DNA from: Sporosarcina psychrophila
GTDB taxonomy: Bacteria; Bacillota; Bacilli; Bacillales_A; Planococcaceae
NCBI RefSeq assembly: GCF_001590685.1
Contig: NZ_CP014616.1
Location: 1,487,001-1,551,000 of the forward strand
Direction: 5' to 3'
Length of the DNA stretch: 64,000 nt
Shown: positions 3,333 to 64,000 of the stretch, piece after piece
Numbering within the stretch: the first letter of the stretch is position 1
Layout: each line of letters opens with the position of its first letter
Position numbers and translations under genes: made by a program
Notes under the pieces: model-generated
Databases searched by the model: none
The model's input: only the letters and a program-made list of their open reading frames with translations
What the model was told of the DNA's origin: nothing

Positions 3333-5105
3333 ATGGTAAAAGAAGATTATTATAGGGTTAAAGAATGGATGAGCGAATATCCGCAAGTGTTGACAAAGGA
3401 CCTTGAAATCGGAGAAACATTACGTTTGCTCTCCGAAGGACATTGTTCGGAACTGCCAGTTGTGGATCATGAACGACTAATCGGAGTCGTCACAATAGGG
3501 GATTGCCTTGCTACTATTAAGAGTGGAATAGGTTGGAATGAACCGATTAACTCTATTATTAGTGCAGTCTTCCAATCGGTGAATGAAGATTTCTCCGTGA
3601 AGCAATTGGATGGATGTCCAACCTATGTCGTATGTGAGAAGACAGGCATGCTCCAAGGAGTAATCACACAAATAGAACTGCTGAAGATTAATCAAGCCCT
3701 TTTTCAACGACTTGAAAAATCAAAGGAGACAATCGAGTGGTATACACTATGTTTTGATACGGCTTATGAAGGATTGACGATTGTAGATGAAGCGGGTGTG
3801 ATTCAATTGTTTAATGAAAACTATAGCCGCTATGTTGGCGTGACTAAGGAGGAGGCTATTGGCCTTCCAGTAGAAAATGTTATTGAGAATACAAGGATAC
3901 CAATTGTCCTTAGAACGGGTATCCCTGAGCGTAATCAAATCCATTGGCTGCAGGGGCAAAAAATGGTTGTTCACCGAATGCCGATTTGGAAAAATGGTCG
4001 TATTATTGGGGCCGTCGGTATGCTTATTTATGAAGGCGTTTCTGAAGTCCAGCAAATTATCACTCAAATAGATTTGTTAGAGCAACGAAAAGGGAGTGAA
4101 ACGTCGATTGAGGTGAGCAAAGTTGCTGCACAGAAACGGTTCACTTTTGAAGATATTCTCGGAGAGAGTCCCGCCATATCTAATACAAAGAAGCTTGCAA
4201 GAAAGGCAGCACAGTCTAAGGCTCCCGTTTTGATCACTGGGGAAAGTGGTGTTGGAAAAGAGCAATTTGCAAGGGCGATACATGATACGGGTAAGATGAG
4301 CAGTGGACGTTTTATCAGTGTTAATTGTGCAGCAATTCCCGAGAACTTAATCGAATCAGAGTTATTTGGCTATATGGAAGGTGCGTTTACAGGTGCGAAA
4401 AAAGGAGGGAAACCCGGAAAATTTGAGCTTGCTCACATGGGAACAATTTTCTTGGATGAAATTGGTGACATGCCCCTTGCGACACAGGTGAAAATTCTTA
4501 GGGTGATTCAGGAAAAAGAGGTGGAACGGATTGGTGGAACTGAACCGATTCAGGTCCAGTTCCGGATTATTACAGCTACAAATAAAAATCTTGAAAAAAT
4601 GGTGAGGGAAGGCGAGTTTAGAGAAGATTTATATTATCGGCTTCACGTGATCCCCTTGAATATTCCTCCACTTAGGGAGCGGAAAAGCGATATCCCACTG
4701 ATTATTTCCGCACAGCTACCCACTCTTTGTCAAATGTACGATAGTGAGGGGAAAACGATTGATAAGGAAGTCATGCAACTATTCTTTCGATATCATTGGC
4801 CAGGGAATGTACGCGAGTTAATTAATGTATTGGAAAGATTATTTGCATTGACAAGCGAATCCCATATTAAAATGAGTGATTTGCCAAACGAATTTTTTCG
4901 AATAGAAAAGAAACAAGAATATATGACTATTTCCTCGTCGTTAAGCGAAAGAAATGAAGTAAGACAACTTGTGCATGAGGAAGAAGAGAAGAATATCATT
5001 GAAAAAGTATTAAGAGAAGTAAGCGGGAACAAGTCGGAAGCGGCTAAACGTCTCGGCATTACAAGAGCAACTCTTTATAATAAACTATCTCGTTATCAGT
5101 TATAA
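3333..5105 (+). CDS. sigma-54-dependent transcriptional activator (CBS-PAS-AAA+-Fis HTH)
   Basis: A 590-residue enhancer-binding protein. Residues about 1-125 form a tandem CBS pair (ligand sensing), 130-235 a PAS domain, 275-500 a sigma-54 AAA+ ATPase, and the last 35 residues a Fis-type helix-turn-helix (NKSEAAKRLGITRATLYNKL). Walker A is GESGVGKE near 302, the sigma-54 contact loop GAFTGA near 349, and Walker B LDEIGD just after. The architecture is like B. subtilis BkdR, the activator of branched-chain keto-acid catabolism. Sequence 98 bp after its stop matches a -24/-12 promoter upstream of the acyl-CoA dehydrogenase operon, so it probably activates that operon and possibly the prp genes. 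The ligand is unknown. Confidence 0.93.
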   Translation: MVKEDYYRVKEWMSEYPQVLTKDLEIGETLRLLSEGHCSELPVVDHERLIGVVTIGDCLATIKSGIGWNEPINSIISAVFQSVNEDFSVKQLDGCPTYVVCEKTGMLQGVITQIELLKINQALFQRLEKSKETIEWYTLCFDTAYEGLTIVDEAGVIQLFNENYSRYVGVTKEEAIGLPVENVIENTRIPIVLRTGIPERNQIHWLQGQKMVVHRMPIWKNGRIIGAVGMLIYEGVSEVQQIITQIDLLEQRKGSETSIEVSKVAAQKRFTFEDILGESPAISNTKKLARKAAQSKAPVLITGESGVGKEQFARAIHDTGKMSSGRFISVNCAAIPENLIESELFGYMEGAFTGAKKGGKPGKFELAHMGTIFLDEIGDMPLATQVKILRVIQEKEVERIGGTEPIQVQFRIITATNKNLEKMVREGEFREDLYYRLHVIPLNIPPLRERKSDIPLIISAQLPTLCQMYDSEGKTIDKEVMQLFFRYHWPGNVRELINVLERLFALTSESHIKMSDLPNEFFRIEKKQEYMTISSSLSERNEVRQLVHEEEEKNIIEKVLREVSGNKSEAAKRLGITRATLYNKLSRYQL

Positions 5106-14402: not shown

Positions 14403-14528
14403 CGGTGATAACCTAATCCATGGCGGTGATAAGTCCGTTTGAGCCGGTGATAACCCAATCCGTGGCGGTGATAACCTCGTTTGAGTCGGTGATAACACAA
14501 TCCATAACGGTGATAAACTCAGTATAAG
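14403..14528. repeat. tandem array of six 21-bp half-repeats with alternating tails
   Basis: CGGTGATAA begins at 14403, 14424, 14445, 14466, 14487 and 14508, an exact 21-bp period. Tails alternate between a CCCAATCC(G/A)TGG type and a CTCGTTTGAG type, giving a 42-bp super-period. It fills the gap between the mnt terminator and the thi operon end. No coding sense. Confidence 0.85.
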
Positions 14529-17745: not shown

Positions 17746-17794
17746 GTAGACAATCAAAAGTATCCCGGAAAATAGACCGGCAGAATTATTGTGT

Positions 17795-17886
17795 CAGCAC
17801 CTCTTCCTTACGCTGGTATTAACCAGTTCAAGTTATAAGGGTCAAGGCACATGCCTCTCTCAGCTCTGTTAGAGCACCCCTAGCGG
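17795..17886 (-). ncRNA. TPP riboswitch (THI element)
   Basis: The minus strand contains the conserved THI-box features in order: GGGGTGC, CTGAGAG, the ACCCTTATAACTTGAACTGG segment, and GGTTAATACCAGCGTAAGGAAG. Those form the pyrimidine- and pyrophosphate-sensing arms. It controls the tenA-thiZXY operon and is followed by a terminator hairpin, so control is probably by transcription termination. Confidence 0.96.
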
Positions 17887-17914
17887 TGGATCATATGAAA
17901 TTGGACTCATCCCC

Positions 17915-27663: not shown

Positions 27664-27666
27664 ATT

Positions 27667-27823
27667 GTCTAGGAAATCATGAAATCTCGTACTGTGGATA
27701 AGTTGTAACGTAGAGATTTTACGTCTAGACTCCAGCGCCTAGCCCCTCGAGTCACTTCTGGCCTGTAGGTAAAGGCAAAGAGCGCTTGTCGGGGATGAAC
27801 AGGCGCTTACGCTTTTGTTCTTG
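27667..27823 (+). repeat. dispersed structured repeat, type 1 (internally deleted copy)
   Basis: Shares its first 60 bp (GAAATCTCGTACTGTGGATA onward) with 45480-45540 and then the standard GTCTAGACTCCAGCGCCTAG .. GGCAAAGAGCGC .. CGCTTTTG element. The right arm of the inner stem is missing between GGCAAAGAGCGC and TTGTCGGGG, as if deleted between short GCGC repeats. Confidence 0.75.
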
Positions 27824-27832
27824 AAAGGATAA

Positions 27833-28037
27833 GTTTTTAGATTTGGAACAGTGTCTAGACTTCAGGCGTTAACCGCTCTAGTTATAAGTAATCTAGCTAT
27901 GTGTCAAAGAACACCACGTCGTGCTTGCAAGGATGCAGGTATGCAGTCGTTGCGACATGATGTCGCGAACTTAGACTGCCTTCTCTTTGTCCGACTTATA
28001 CCTGTCGCGTCTTAAAGGGAGCCTTTCGCTTTTCTTA
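27833..28037 (+). repeat. dispersed structured repeat, type 2
   Basis: About 205 bp related to 54097-54489. Outer ends are GTGTCTAGACTTCAGGCG and CCTTTCGCTTTTCTT; the inner hairpin ends in GTGTCAAAGAACACC. It carries an added block (TGCAAGGATGCAGGTATGCA and GTCGTTGCGAC) also seen at 54.38 kb. It precedes the sensor kinase gene by about 120 bp. Confidence 0.75.
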
Positions 28038-33184: not shown

Positions 33185-33650
33185 CGAGCAAATAGCGTTG
33201 CGTCCCGATCATATAACTGGATTGCCGATCAAATAACATTGCGTGTCGATCATATAACTGGATTGCCGATCAAATAACGTTGCGTCCCGATCATATAACT
33301 GGATTGCCGATCAAATAACGTTGCGTCCCGATCATATAACTGGATTGCCGATCAAATAGCGTTGCGTGTCGATCATATAACTAGTTTGCCGAACAAATAG
33401 CATTGCGTGTCGATCATATAACTAGTTTGCCGATCAAATAGCGTTGCGTGTCGATCATACAGCATTGCGTCCCGATCATATAACTGGATTGCCGATCAAA
33501 TAGCGTTGCGAACCAATCATATAACTGGTTTGCCGATCAAATAGCATTGCGTCCCGATCATATAACAGGTTTGCCGATCAAATAGCATTGCGTCCCGATC
33601 ATATAACTGGATTGCCGATCAAATAGCGTTGTGTCCCAAGCATATAAGCT
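33185..33650. repeat. large tandem array with 41-bp period (alternating 20/21-bp halves)
   Basis: About 22 half-units. Half A is CGATCAAATAGCGTTGCGTCC, shown here as CGATCAAATA + GCGTTGCGTCC (21 bp); half B is CGATCATATAACTGGATTGC (20 bp). They alternate strictly except near 33453, where B is cut after CGATCATA and joined to an A tail. Starts such as 33206, 33226, 33247, 33267, 33288 and 33308 show the 20/21 spacing. Non-coding; it lies between convergent genes. Confidence 0.9.
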
Positions 33651-38115: not shown

Positions 38116-38129
38116 AATAGCAATAGCTT

Positions 38130-38372
38130 TGGTGTTGAAGAGGAGTAGTAATCTTTACTGTCGTTTATTAGAGAGCAGGCGGTTGGTGGAAGCCTGTACG
38201 ATAGAGATGAACTCGCCTTGGAGCCTGCATTGGTGAATTATTTGATTTACTAACCCGTGCCGTTTTCCGCGTTAAGGAGTCAAGTTGGGCGGCTTTGTCG
38301 TCAATTTGGGTGGCACCGCGGGAATTATACTACTCTCGTCCCTTATCTTTTTAAGGGACGGGAGTTTTTTGT
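38130..38372 (+). ncRNA. T-box riboswitch, leucine-specific
   Basis: Leader with stem I elements (GAGGAGTAGTAATC, then AGAGAGCAGGCGGTTGGTGG), a specifier loop reading GAA-CTC-GCC with CTC (Leu) at 38212-38214, the T-box GGGTGGCACCGCGGG at 38308-38322, and a terminator stem CTCTCGTCCCTTA / TAAGGGACGGGAG followed by T6 (38332-38376). Uncharged tRNA-Leu would stabilise the antiterminator and allow leuS expression. Confidence 0.95.
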
Positions 38373-45474: not shown

Positions 45475-45479
45475 ATTGT

Positions 45480-45702
45480 TTGTCTAAAAATAATGAAATC
45501 TCGTACTGTGGATAAGTTACCATTTGAAAATTTCACGTCTAGACTCCAGCGCCTAGCCCCACACGACGCGGGTCATGCAGTTTCTGTCTTGCTGATTAAA
45601 GGCAAAGAGTGCTTTTATCAGCAAGGCTACCGGGAGGGATTGAACTTGCATCCCTCCTACTTTTTGGGGCTAAACAGGCGTTTCCGCTTTTGTTATATAC
45701 AG
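45480..45702 (+). repeat. dispersed structured repeat, type 1
   Basis: Begins with the same 60-bp flank as 27667 (GAAATCTCGTACTGTGGATA), then GTCTAGACTCCAGCGCCTAG, an inner stem CTTGCTGAT .. ATCAGCAAG capped by AAAGGCAAAGAGTGCTTTT, and ends in AGGCGTTTCCGCTTTTG. An extra GGGAGGGATTGAACTTGCAT block with CCCTCC forms a second small hairpin on its 3' side. Confidence 0.75.
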
Positions 45703-45707
45703 GCTCC

Positions 45708-45762
45708 AAGCGCCAGCTCCCTTATACCTACGTGAAGCAGGTATGAGAGCTGGCGCTTTTTG
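45708..45762. terminator. long hairpin terminator before ytzE
   Basis: AAGCGCCAGCTC .. TACCT / AGGTA .. GAGCTGGCGCTTTTT. It lies at the 3' end of the convergent ytzE and could serve either strand. Confidence 0.65.
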
Positions 45763-45783
45763 CTTTTCTAGGTCATGTGCGGG

Positions 45784-54066: not shown

Positions 54067-54096
54067 ATGCAATTTTCCGAGAAAAGGTAAGAGGGT

Positions 54097-54237
54097 TTAA
54101 GTTTTTCGACACGGAACAGTGTCTAGGCTCTAGGAGCCAGCCGCTCGGGTCATAAGCAATCCAGCTATGTGGCAAAGTGCGCCACGTCGCTGGATTGACT
54201 TATGCCCGTCGCGTCTAAACGGCGCCTTGCGCTTTTC
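54097..54237 (+). repeat. dispersed structured repeat, type 2, copy a
   Basis: GTGTCTAGGCTCTAGGAGCC .. GCAATCCAGC-N-TGTGGCAAAGTGCGCCACG-N-GCTGGATTG .. GGCGCCTTGCGCTTTTCTA. The inner stem has a different sequence from type 1 but the same GGC-AAAG-NRC-GCC cap. Confidence 0.8.
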
Positions 54238-54489
54238 TAAGTGTCTAGGCTCCAGGCGCCAGCCGCTTGGAGGCCCACAGGAGGTGGGGTCACGTAGCCA
54301 TTGCCGCAGGACGCGGCGTACTTAGGCTAGGTTCCTTGAAAGCAATCCAGCTATGTGGTAAAGTACGCCACGTCGTGCCTGCAAGGATGCAGGTATGCAG
54401 TCGTTGCGACAGGACGTCGCGCTCTTAGACTGCCTTCCCCTGAATCGACTTATGCCTGTCGAGTCTAGAAGGCGCCTTACGCTTTTCAT
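54238..54489 (+). repeat. dispersed structured repeat, type 2, copy b (with insert)
   Basis: Starts GTGTCTAGGCTCCAGGCGCC, contains GCAATCCAGC and GTGGTAAAGTACGCCAC, plus blocks absent from copy a (GCCGCAGGACGCGGC; TGCAAGGATGCAGGTATGCA with GTCGTTGCGACAGGACGTCGC, the latter listed in two parts: GTCGTTGCGAC and AGGACGTCGC). Ends AAGGCGCCTTACGCTTTTC. Related to 27833-28037. It lies directly upstream of ytpQ. Confidence 0.75.
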
Positions 54490-60892: not shown

Positions 60893-61080
60893 ACTTAAAT
60901 ATGAAGTATTTAAGTTGAATATATAAATGCGTGTTTAAATTACGTGAAGGCGCCATAATTGGGGTAACCGAAAGCCCTAAGACTGTGGTGAAAGCTGCCT
61001 GGCTTAGGGCGAGAGGCATCTTCTAGCGTCGTAGCGGATACAATAGGATTCATTATTTCAACATATATATATAGACTTAA
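60893..61080 (+). mobile_element. MITE-like element copy 3 (long form)
   Basis: About 188 bp between ytxG and ytxH. Left TTTAAGTTGAATATATAAATG, then GTGAAGGCGCC, an internal 9-bp stem AGCCCTAAG / CTTAGGGC, right GGATTCATTATTTCAACATATATA. The right end abuts the ytxH ribosome site AGGAGGA by 6 bp. Confidence 0.5.
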
Positions 61081-61099
61081 AAAACAGGAGGAATTGGAT

Positions 61100-61816
61100 A
61101 TGAGTGAAGAAAACAAAGTGAAATCAAATAATAATGACCCACAATACAACCAGGGTGGTCAAGGTTATGAAAATGCGTATGGCCAACCATCATACCTACC
61201 GACAAATTATGATTATAACAAGGACTATACAGATTCTTTCTATGCTGAAAATGAAAGTTCAGGAGCGGGAAGCTTCTTAATGGGTGCACTTGTGGGAGGA
61301 GTTATCGGAGCAGCTGCGGCACTATTCTTGGCACCAAAAACGGGTAGTGAAATGCGAGGAAACCTTACAACTCAAGCAACTCAACTGAAAGATAAGAGTA
61401 TTGAAATCAGTTCTGTTGCGAAGGAAAAAGCTACAGAGCTAACTTCGGTCGCAAAAGAGAAGACTGGTGAATTATCGAAAACAATCCAAGAACAGTCTGG
61501 ACAACTTGTCGATAAAGTGAAATCGATGAAATCGAAAACATCTATGCCGATGGATGATGGAACAGCATCTTCTGAAGGCGAAGAGTCTATTGATTTCGTT
61601 GATACAGCTAAATCCAAAGTTGAAAATACTATTGAGGCTGGAGAAGAAAGTATTACAGCTACTGCAGAAGCTGTAAAAAAAGCAGTCGTGGGAAAAGCTA
61701 ATAATGCTGAGAAAGCTACAACTGGCAATAGTGATGTCTCTTATGGTAATAGCGAGAACCTTGGTAAAGATAAAATAACTAACCAGAACTATGTGTCAGA
61801 CATTCTTGAAAAATAA
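61100..61816 (+). CDS. ytxH: YtxH-domain protein
   Basis: A 238-residue protein. A short N-terminal Asn/Tyr/Gly-rich segment is followed by the YtxH glycine/alanine hydrophobic hairpin GSFLMGALVGGVIGAAAALFLAPKTGSE near 58-85 (one run of mostly small residues), then coiled-coil repeats (SVAKEKATELTSVAKEKTGE as two similar blocks) and an acidic tail. YtxH proteins are general-stress envelope proteins without known activity. ATG 61100 has AGGAGGA 6 nt upstream; the TTG two codons earlier is too close. Confidence 0.88.
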   Translation: MSEENKVKSNNNDPQYNQGGQGYENAYGQPSYLPTNYDYNKDYTDSFYAENESSGAGSFLMGALVGGVIGAAAALFLAPKTGSEMRGNLTTQATQLKDKSIEISSVAKEKATELTSVAKEKTGELSKTIQEQSGQLVDKVKSMKSKTSMPMDDGTASSEGEESIDFVDTAKSKVENTIEAGEESITATAEAVKKAVVGKANNAEKATTGNSDVSYGNSENLGKDKITNQNYVSDILEK

Positions 61817-61825
61817 AAAGTAATA

Positions 61826-61869
61826 GAAAAAAGTCCGTCTACTCAAATATGAGTAGATGGACTTTTTTT
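61826..61869 (+). terminator. terminator after ytxH
   Basis: AAAAAAGTCCGTCTACTCA-AATA-TGAGTAGATGGACTTTTTTT; nearly perfect stem with A and T tracts. Confidence 0.92.
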
Positions 61870-61895
61870 AAAGGTAAGCAAGTATAAATGTTCCT

Positions 61896-62529
61896 ACCAA
61901 GGCGTTTCCGCTTTTCTTGTTGTCTAGCTCCAGGCGCCAGCCCCTCGAGTCGCTTCGGTCTTGCAGAAAAGGCAAAGTACGCCTTTATCTACAAGACCTC
62001 CAGCGCTTGTCGGGTCTAACCGGCGTCTTCCGCTTTTCTTGTTGTCTATCTCCAGGCGCCAGCCCCTCGAGTCGCTTCGGTCTTGCAAAAAAGGCAAAGT
62101 ACGCCTTTATCTACAAGACCTCCAGCGCTTGTCGGGGCTAACCGGCATCTTCCGCTTTTCTTGTTGTCTAGCTCCAGGCGCCAGCCCCTCGAGTCGCTTC
62201 AGTCTTGCAGAAAAGGCAAAGAGCGCCTTTATCTTCAAGACCACCAGCGCTTGTCGGGGCTAACCGGCGTCTTCCGCTTTTCTTAGTGTCTAGACTTCAG
62301 CGCCTAGCCCCTCGAGTCGCTTAGGACCTCAAGTTAAAGGCAAAGAGCGCCTTTATCTTAAGGTCCTTCAGCGCTTGTCGGGTCTCCCAAGGCGCTTCCG
62401 CTTTTCTTATTGTCTAGACTTCAGACGCCAGCCCCTCGAGTCGCTTCGGTCTTGCAGAAAAGGCAAAGAGCGCCTTTATCTACAAGACCTCCAGCGCTTG
62501 TCGGGGCTAACCGGCGTCTTCCGCTTTTC
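61896..62529 (+). repeat. five tandem copies of the 122-bp structured repeat
   Basis: GTCTA starts recur at 61922, 62044, 62166, 62288 and 62412 (period 122, once 124). Each unit runs GTCTAGCTCCAGGCGCCAGC, CCCTCGAGTCGCTT, an inner hairpin GGTCTTG .. AAGGC-AAAGTAC-GCCTT .. CAAGACC, AGCGCTTGTCGGGGCT and ends CGTCTTCCGCTTTTCTT. Copy 4 replaces the inner stem by GGACCTCAAG .. CTTAAGGTCC. The array ends at the stop codon of the FtsA-like gene on the other strand. Confidence 0.92.
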
Positions 62530-64000
62530 TTACGTAAAACTAATTTCAAGTCTGTCGCCGCCGAAAATAGCATCGTTGAATCCGATTGGTGTGTCGTTTC
62601 GAAGCAGTTTATAATTACTTGATGGGTTTTCGGGTAAACTATAATCTGTAAACGCAAAGATGTCGCCAAAAGTAATAGGACTTTCACTTAGTGATACAAA
62701 ATCAAGATGATCCCCAGGTTTTACAATGGCAGATACTTCAGCACTATGCCCGTTTAAAGTAAAGGTAAGACGTGGTTTTTGAATTGTGACGGGTTCATTG
62801 TTGAATAGTACTGTTAGTTTATCGAACGCCTTTTTACCTATCTCAGCTACAACTTCATCTATGGTAGGGAATGGCGGTTTTTGGGTTGTAATTCGGTCTC
62901 CATCTTTCAGTACGTGCGATGGCTGCACCGAAGTCCCCATGATGAAGAACTCGTTGTTCTTTTTTTTCAAGGTGACCGTTCTTTTATTGACGGATACTGT
63001 GAAAAGATTGTCCTTTAAAAGGTCATTTCGATGTGCTTTTTCAAATACTGCCGCGACTGTCTTGGTGTGTGAAACTGTGATTTTATCACGGTCTTGTATC
63101 GATGTATCGATGCTTTTTAGAATTCCATTAATATGAATAAGGGGCTCCAATTGCACGGCAACTCCGTCCAACATTGCACTGATGGCTCTCATATCCTCAA
63201 CAAGGTCACGCACAGTCGCTATTGCGTTAGTACCATCACTGCCGGGAAGTAAGTTGATTGTATCTCCATTTTTAATGCAGTCTTTTGTACTTGCTTTTAC
63301 CCCATTTAATAGGATTGTTGAGGGGGTACCATGTTCTCCTGGTATTATTATATCATTGTCATTTACTGTTATCGTCATTCCAAGTCCGGGCATACCGTAT
63401 AGTTGACGGGCTTTAATGTTTGCTGCAAGGAGTGCATCACTGACGGTCATCTCTTTTAATTCGAAGAGTCGTAGCACCTTGTCATTTACGGACACGGACA
63501 TATAATGAATCGGCGCTCTTCTTGCTGCGATAGCGATACCGATTGGTGTGACGAGTTCTGGCGATGAAGCTATACCGGGTTCCAATGTAATTCCCGAGAG
63601 AGCATCCAACCCACGAATACCTACCCTGTTTTCGGGTAGTCCTAGGCATATACTAATTTCTTTTGTCAGCCCCGGCGTTAAACTACCGCCGCCAACAACC
63701 ATGACTGCTTTAGGGGAAACTCCATTGTTCAGGCGCTTGATTTCATCCGAAATGGATTTGGCAAGCCGATCTACAGCAGGTTTAATAATAGCGGTTACAT
63801 CACTTGAAGCAACATTATCTTCAAAGCCGAGAATGTCTGTCATGACAATTGTATCTTCTGTTGTAATACTTCTTTTTGCAGTCTCAGCAAGTTGGAAGTC
63901 AAGGAGATAATGGTTGCTGAGTGCTTCTGTAATTTCATCACCTGCAAGTGGCACCATTCCGTAAGCCACAACGGTGTTGTTATCGGTAATAGCTATATCT
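62530..64000 (-). CDS. FtsA/PilM-like actin-fold protein (5' partial)
   Basis: The C-terminal 490 residues of a protein that continues beyond the window (open frame DIAITDNNTVVAYGMVPLAG from the edge). The actin/Hsp70-fold signatures of FtsA-like proteins are visible: AYGMVPLAGDEITEAL, and the phosphate loop VMVVGGGSLTPGLTKEI. After about residue 150 of this part, several domains look like ubiquitin/ThiS-type or SLBB folds (NDNDIIIPGEHGTPSTILLNG, KDGDRITTQ, VKPGDHLDFV), not seen in canonical FtsA. In Bacillales such long proteins are annotated cell-division FtsA-domain proteins; the role is uncertain. Confidence 0.78.
   Translation of the reverse strand, partial: DIAITDNNTVVAYGMVPLAGDEITEALSNHYLLDFQLAETAKRSITTEDTIVMTDILGFEDNVASSDVTAIIKPAVDRLAKSISDEIKRLNNGVSPKAVMVVGGGSLTPGLTKEISICLGLPENRVGIRGLDALSGITLEPGIASSPELVTPIGIAIAARRAPIHYMSVSVNDKVLRLFELKEMTVSDALLAANIKARQLYGMPGLGMTITVNDNDIIIPGEHGTPSTILLNGVKASTKDCIKNGDTINLLPGSDGTNAIATVRDLVEDMRAISAMLDGVAVQLEPLIHINGILKSIDTSIQDRDKITVSHTKTVAAVFEKAHRNDLLKDNLFTVSVNKRTVTLKKKNNEFFIMGTSVQPSHVLKDGDRITTQKPPFPTIDEVVAEIGKKAFDKLTVLFNNEPVTIQKPRLTFTLNGHSAEVSAIVKPGDHLDFVSLSESPITFGDIFAFTDYSLPENPSSNYKLLRNDTPIGFNDAIFGGDRLEISFT

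Follow-up and report, generated by a model that had tools for sequence, protein, structure and literature searches.

Hairpin repeats of Sporosarcina psychrophila as probable modules of a BOX-like family of short mobile elements

Several families of short, folded, repeated sequences have been described in Bacillota. BOX elements of Streptococcus pneumoniae are described as having terminal inverted repeats and as duplicating their target, and an insertion sequence with similar ends has been proposed as their mobiliser (PMC3049150). Closer to the organism considered here, Bhal-1 and Bhal-2 of Bacillus halodurans are high-copy intergenic stem-loop families of 74-76 nt (PMC2267715), and the publication on Bacillaceae-1 (RF01690) presented it as a candidate RNA rather than a mobile repeat (Weinberg et al. 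2010, PMC2864571). The repeats analysed in the present work resemble Bhal-1 and Bhal-2, when compared by description only, in being high-copy intergenic stem-loops. They lie in a stretch of 64,000 nucleotides of the S. psychrophila genome (hereafter the window, G000:1487001-1551000, where G000 is a single contig of 4.67 Mb). As argued below, we consider it likely that the repeat units are hairpin modules of short, non-coding, non-autonomous and modular mobile elements that move by the mechanism proposed here.

A sequence-only reading of the window had reported five tandem copies of a structured repeat at 61.9-62.5 kb, and five tandem units of about 122 bp were indeed found at 61922-62529. TRF places the array at 61901-62531 (period 122, 5.2 copies, 88% matches) and each unit starts with GTCTA, at 61922, 62044, 62166, 62288 and 62412, in agreement with the five copies. 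The further units reported near 27.7, 27.8, 45.5, 54.1 and 54.2 kb were located at 27723, 27853, 45537, 54121 and 54243. The leader, the types of 3′ end, the nested Bacillaceae-1 matches and the mobility are additions to that reading. The array itself was rejected as a member of an Rfam family as no Rfam match to it was obtained, and RF01690 in particular gave no match in 61000-63500 at E<=5 (the Rfam gathering threshold is 35 bits). The features are listed in Table 1. It may be noted that the window also holds another intergenic tandem array with a 41-bp period at 33185-33647 (CGATCAAATAGCATTGCGTCCCGATCATATAACTGGATTGC), with resembling runs (GATCATATCC..) near G000:4216771-4217050, and a short tandem array with a 21/42-bp period at 14403-14516 (CGGTGATAACCCAATCCATGG). 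Also present are a T-box leader (38126-38346, forward strand) and a TPP riboswitch (17788-17891, reverse strand), both of them ordinary Rfam matches at the gathering threshold.

Table 1. Features of the repeat elements in the window (window coordinates).
Feature	Position	Strand	Remarks
Rho-independent terminator of the upstream gene	61827..61870	+	Inverted repeat 61827-61845/61850-61868, then T-run
Leader type I remnant (AAGGTAAGCAAGTATAAATGTTC)	61871..61892	+	Aligned to leader consensus AAAGRTAAGAAAGTATAAGTTTTT
Partial unit, 3′ end only (CTACCAAGGCGTTTCCGCTTTTCTTG)	61893..61919	+	Match at G000:1548894-1548918
Type A hairpin unit 1	61922..62038	+	
Type A hairpin unit 2	62044..62160	+	
Type A hairpin unit 3	62166..62282	+	
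Type A hairpin unit 4, divergent stem GGACCTCAAG/CTTAAGGTCC	62288..62406	+	
Type A hairpin unit 5, end = CTTTTCTTA, adjoins stop codon of convergent gene	62412..62529	+	
Leader type II + collapsed A unit + type-II 3′ end (GCTTTTGTT)	27664..27817	+	Absent in G009, G002
Leader type I + B unit with Bacillaceae-1 module (RF01690, minus strand 27924-27990)	27826..28034	+	Absent in G009, G002
Leader type II + A unit with inserted E hairpin (GGGAGGGATTGAACTTGCATCCCTCC) + type-II 3′ end	45475..45692	+	Absent in G009, G002
Minimal hairpin, ends of same kind	45697..45768	+	Common to G009, G002
Leader type I + B unit, stem GCAATCCAGC/GCTGGATTG	54083..54237	+	
B unit with two Bacillaceae-1 modules (RF01690, minus strand 54274-54341, 54378-54444)	54243..54487	+	

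The elements share one order of parts, namely a leader, hairpin units of type A, B or C, and a short 3′ end. The leader is either of type I (about 40 nt, consensus AAAGRTAAGAAAGTATAAGTTTTTCnACTTGGAACAGT) or of type II (about 60 nt, ..ATGAAATCTCGTACTGTGGATAAGTTGTAACATAGAGATTTCAC), while the units are about 118 nt long and are joined by linkers of 2-5 nt. The number of units per element varies from n = 0 to 5, some elements being a leader and a 3′ end alone. When up to 3 mismatches are allowed, the core of the type I leader has 59 matches in the genome as against 16 for the reversed control. The 3′ end CTTTTCTTA (C-type) goes with leader I in 35 of 38 cases and CTTTTGTT (G-type) with leader II in 5 of 6, though these latter cases are few. 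On examining the ends, an imperfect inverted repeat of 8-9 nt was found in the leader-I elements, between TAAGAAAG in the leader and CTTTTCTTA at the 3′ end; no terminal inverted repeat was seen in elements with the type II leader. Some elements also contain an inner hairpin GGGAGGGATTGAACTGCATCCCTCC, whose stem covaries and whose loop is fixed. In a search for an autonomous partner, none of the 30 top-ranking leader matches in the genome had a transposase gene following it.

Each unit forms one long interrupted hairpin, and folding of the five array units as single-stranded DNA gave z values of -3.4 to -5.2. From the outside inwards there is an outer stem (e.g. GGCGCC/GGCGTC), then AGCCCC/GGGGCT, then CGAGTCGCT/AGCGCTTGTCG, and a variable upper stem, with GGCAAAGNRCGCC at the apex. 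All four of the stems quoted earlier as differing between units yet remaining paired are present and paired; the apex described as common to all units is largely so, except in the unit at 27853, which reads GTGTCAAAGAACACCAC. For covariation analysis we used 55 A units from many species, made non-redundant at 90% identity and aligned by sequence only, and took the fold of one window unit as the structure. In this set 87% of the cells pair and both-side changes occur in 26 of the 37 pairs. These changes are found in 292 cells, as against 103 ± 11 in shuffled alignments (0 of 500 shuffles reach 292) and 46-62 when the structure is slid along the alignment. The 21 B units gave 109 both-side changes compared to 39 in the control. 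One pair of the outer stem, for example, is C-G in 24 sequences, G-C in 19, A-U in 3 and U-A in 2. The two arms thus change together and not independently in both the A and the B units. Compensatory pairing in the units therefore exceeds the controls, but covariation does not tell an RNA hairpin from a DNA hairpin.

Such strong covariation in A and B units is what would be seen if they were a functional structured RNA, i.e. a small RNA or a 3′-UTR element, transcribed from the minus strand like Bacillaceae-1 (which Rfam models on that strand) and selected for a cellular role. We therefore counted mismatch events in the paired columns of A and B units, taking the union of the folds of both strands and clustering at 80% identity, and treated the SAM riboswitches of the same genus alike. 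The riboswitches gave 14 G.T and 3 A.C, whereas the plus strand of the units gave 37 G.T and 59 A.C, which is opposite to the riboswitches and differs from their ratio (Fisher p 0.001; this and the following p-values are optimistic given the shared ancestry of the units). Since a selected RNA strand should show G.U far above A.C, RNA from the plus strand is disfavoured. On the minus strand the counts become 59 G.U and 37 A.C, and this excess of 1.6 to 1 over an even ratio (binomial p 0.03) favours the structured RNA; yet it is below the 14 to 3 of the riboswitches, a difference which alone is not significant (p 0.11). The mismatch pattern is thus compatible with either a DNA hairpin or a minus-strand RNA. 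Against a cellular RNA are also the uneven number of Bacillaceae-1 copies (0 in some genomes of one genus and at least 69 at the upper end), the difference of element sites between close congeners, and the interiors that are swapped or deleted at orthologous sites. We therefore judge a selected structured RNA to be clearly unlikely. The selection on a folded RNA or cruciform put forward in the sequence-only reading is supported in part: the paired stems bear out its structural side, while an RNA kept by selection is no more than a putative reading, the units being by our analysis modules of a recently mobile repeat. The cruciform named there, or a hairpin of single-stranded DNA, fits at least as well as RNA.

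The mismatches are nearly symmetric between the strands, as expected of a process acting on DNA, and the paired changes may have a mutational origin in which the arms of a quasi-palindrome are corrected against each other by template switching; covariation would then be seen in any palindromic repeat, with no selection behind it. The outermost stem of the A units, which is the most variable and is still paired, would agree with such correction. However, the drift of the stem leaves bulges, loops and unpaired linkers conserved, and pure correction would also erase fixed mismatches and asymmetric bulges. As a contributing cause, which would be compatible with mobility, arm correction is possible though rather doubtful. 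It may be noted that the stem is better conserved after insertion than a dead copy would require, unless most copies are young or the arms are mutually corrected, and this counts against the units being modules of mobile elements.

The array unit has around 40 full or nearly full-length copies in the S. psychrophila genome, where one type A unit used as query gave 72 matching segments. The unit is found in many species of Bacillaceae and Planococcaceae. An exact pattern of its core is matched by at least 120 stretches from named genomes, and among the matches listed are Mesobacillus, Sporosarcina, Planococcus/Planomicrobium, Filibacter, Lysinibacillus, Cytobacillus, Neobacillus and one Anoxybacillus MAG. 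Two contigs of Sporosarcina sp. E16_8 have the unit, and in the congener G002 repeat matches lie at the far ends of two contigs (C93 and C94, ending at 4765 and 4417). The repeat was also seen in a record titled Chryseobacterium sp. ISL-80 (L059), while other listed ISL strains are Bacillus; a mistaken title or a mixed assembly may be behind this. The core pattern had 0 matches in 72,556 plasmids and 0 in 50,697 phages, and one exact match in IMG/VR contigs, on which grounds spread by plasmids or phages was rejected. At G000:2212258-2215380 (L048), a segment resembling an insertion sequence (ATGTCCGTAAAAAGAAGAACG..) starts within a repeat unit, with near-identical A units close by. No description of the exact sequence was found in the open-access literature searched by sequence words and topic, subscription journals being outside this scope.

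For the placement of the elements we compared three congeners, covering 278-344 kb in each, where matching places occur at about 25-53 per Mb. The array element lies directly behind the T-run of the terminator of the upstream gene. In G009 this terminator is followed directly by the end of the next gene with no element between them, and the element is also absent in G060 and G006, where the terminator has diverged, while G002 and G058 have different sets of modules at the same place. As the congeners are only about 85-91% identical near the array, these junctions are not those of a single fresh event, and at any one site gain and precise deletion look alike. More clean junctions were obtained among G000, G009 and G002, the remaining window elements being either empty in both relatives or different in content. 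At the five sites where junctions were read against empty congener sites, no target duplication of more than 1 bp was found. A leader-I element of G002 is present at the centre of a palindrome (TTAACTTGATTCAAGTTAA) that is uninterrupted in G009. Overall, a terminator-like hairpin with a T-run is present directly upstream in 24 of 38 complete leader-I elements, the T-run being a few bases away, as against 19 of 595 random positions (3%); the random positions include coding DNA and therefore part of this contrast reflects the intergenic location.

Within the elements, both the tandem arrays and the comparison of orthologous elements reveal that each module behaves as a block when it is duplicated, swapped or deleted. 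At G009:C46:129921 two near-identical B units are present, whereas the G002 ortholog has the same leader with one B unit and added hairpins, and the orthologs of the element at 54243..54487 in G009 and G002 are without both its Bacillaceae-1 modules. Because whole hairpins are exchanged as blocks, part of the difference between neighbouring units is not stepwise compensation. The range in copy number of RF01690 together with the difference of sites between congeners suggests a BOX-like mobile family as opposed to a conserved regulatory RNA. The position behind terminators, and the excess of elements between convergent genes (12 of 31 elements compared to 106 of 539 intergenic gaps), would also suit domesticated 3′-end elements serving the stability of mRNA or acting as a backup for transcription termination. 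But the element is missing at many orthologous genes, and convergent regions are also the places where insertions do least harm, hence we regard this role as highly unlikely.

To rationalize these observations by mobility, we propose that the elements would insert leader first and beside existing hairpins, mostly at the position immediately after the T-run of a Rho-independent terminator and once in the middle of a palindrome. Inside the elements the units would then be tandemly duplicated, deleted or altered by other hairpin repeats, notably Bacillaceae-1. Some enzyme would recognise the folded hairpin, probably as single-stranded DNA, cruciform DNA or minus-strand RNA; such recognition of the fold could account for stem sequences that drift while pairing, loops and end motifs are kept. 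If the host is affected at all, this would be a secondary matter.

A mobilising enzyme for the element family was not found. Y1 transposition involves hairpins, insertion next to a hairpin without target duplication and a T-rich target, and in all of these the elements are similar to it, which would make them REP-like palindromes whose movement depends in trans on a Y1 transposase (IS200/IS605 or RAYT). A Y1 protein is present in 45 of 61 congeners. However, PF01797 has 0 matches in G000 although control genomes did match, Y1 is absent from the high-copy congeners G031, G050 and G053, and Y1 copies are uncorrelated with element copies over the 61 genomes (rho -0.06, 0.05). Y1/RAYT was thus rejected as the general mobiliser, and we hold this route to be very improbable. 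A group II intron, an idea that came from the terminator targeting, was also rejected, as the maturase (PF08388) occurs once in G000 and in none of the high-copy G031, G040 and G050. The usual MITE moved by a DDE transposase is a poor fit in view of the lack of target duplication and the short imperfect terminal repeat. Going further, the elements may represent a class of mobile DNA for which the folded hairpin is the feature recognised, and which enters other hairpins or settles next to them with no duplication of the target. The enzyme would then be something other than Y1, a group II intron or an insertion sequence with matching ends, and Bacillaceae-1 and other hairpin repeats of these genomes would be further members of the class, inserting into one another; we put this forward as a speculation that is on balance unlikely.

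Bacillaceae-1 is a physical part of several elements, occurs in the same organisms and is also a high-copy repeat here. The nested RF01690 modules of the window score 63.1, 63.0 and 53.7 bits, and their strand is always opposite to that of the element. Apart from these modules, the A and B units do not match RF01690 even at E 5-10 (none at E<=10 in the B unit at 54121-54237), and RF01690 is also found solo and within other repeats. Its number per genome in the genus sample varies from 0 (e.g. G001, G003, G012 and G044) to at least 60-69, with no more than 69 candidates being scored. On examining 25 high-scoring copies, we found 2 enclosed by both ends of the element family and 7 with at least one such end nearby, and many of the remaining copies either stand alone or belong to two further repeat hairpins. 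One such hairpin, near G000:1688431, has a Bacillaceae-1-like module in its loop, as does its G009 ortholog, and in the G002 ortholog the hairpin is present but the module is missing. A hairpin family 'ATTACGCCTCGGCGTAATTGCGTCCAGATTTTGAAT..TTCAAAATCTGTGACATCCGCCGGAGGCTT' repeatedly hosts Bacillaceae-1, in the loop or beside a second stem (L315:1400-1650, L316, L317, L326 and L339), and a third host family 'CCCGATTGGTTCGGG .. CAGTGGGGGATGAAACCCCCACTGATTGAAGTTTCACTTTATT' has it inside (L329, L333 and L336, around position 1500). The nesting in these elements and in other hairpins, along with the solo copies, shows that Bacillaceae-1 is an independent repeat that also enters these elements. This supposed regulatory RNA therefore looks like a piece of mobile repeat DNA, and if it behaves as a mobile module, as is suggested here, the annotation of its many matches should change.

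The element family accounts for a large share of the intergenic repeats in an entire group of Bacilli from soil and sea. It also calls for caution, since strong covariation, which is the usual evidence for a functional RNA, can be produced by a hairpin that moves. Identification of the enzyme would tell whether insertion directed by hairpins exists beyond Y1 transposases and integrons.

On comparing the elements with known systems, they are like MITEs such as bcr1 of the Bacillus cereus group in being short, non-coding, high-copy, folded, intergenic and polymorphic in position, but they differ in having no target duplication, a short imperfect terminal repeat, an unconserved stem sequence and a modular interior. 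With REP/BIME sequences and their RAYT they share the palindromic, hairpin-based make-up, the intergenic location and the tandem clusters, except that Y1 is absent from G000 and uncorrelated in the genus. BOX of S. pneumoniae and the BOX-type repeats of S. suis are likewise non-coding and modular, with tandem inner modules in variable number between end modules, and in S. suis two types of end surround shared inner modules just as two leader types with mostly matching ends do here. Nested insertions, enrichment away from regulatory regions and the ability to fold as RNA are other points in common with BOX. The Sporosarcina elements differ from BOX in that no target duplication was seen and no such insertion sequence was found, and their inner units are hairpins of about 118 nt with hypervariable but paired stems. 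It is in architecture that the elements are closest to the streptococcal BOX elements, and we call them BOX-like in their working and not BOX elements, since they do not show the duplication of the target that is reported for BOX.
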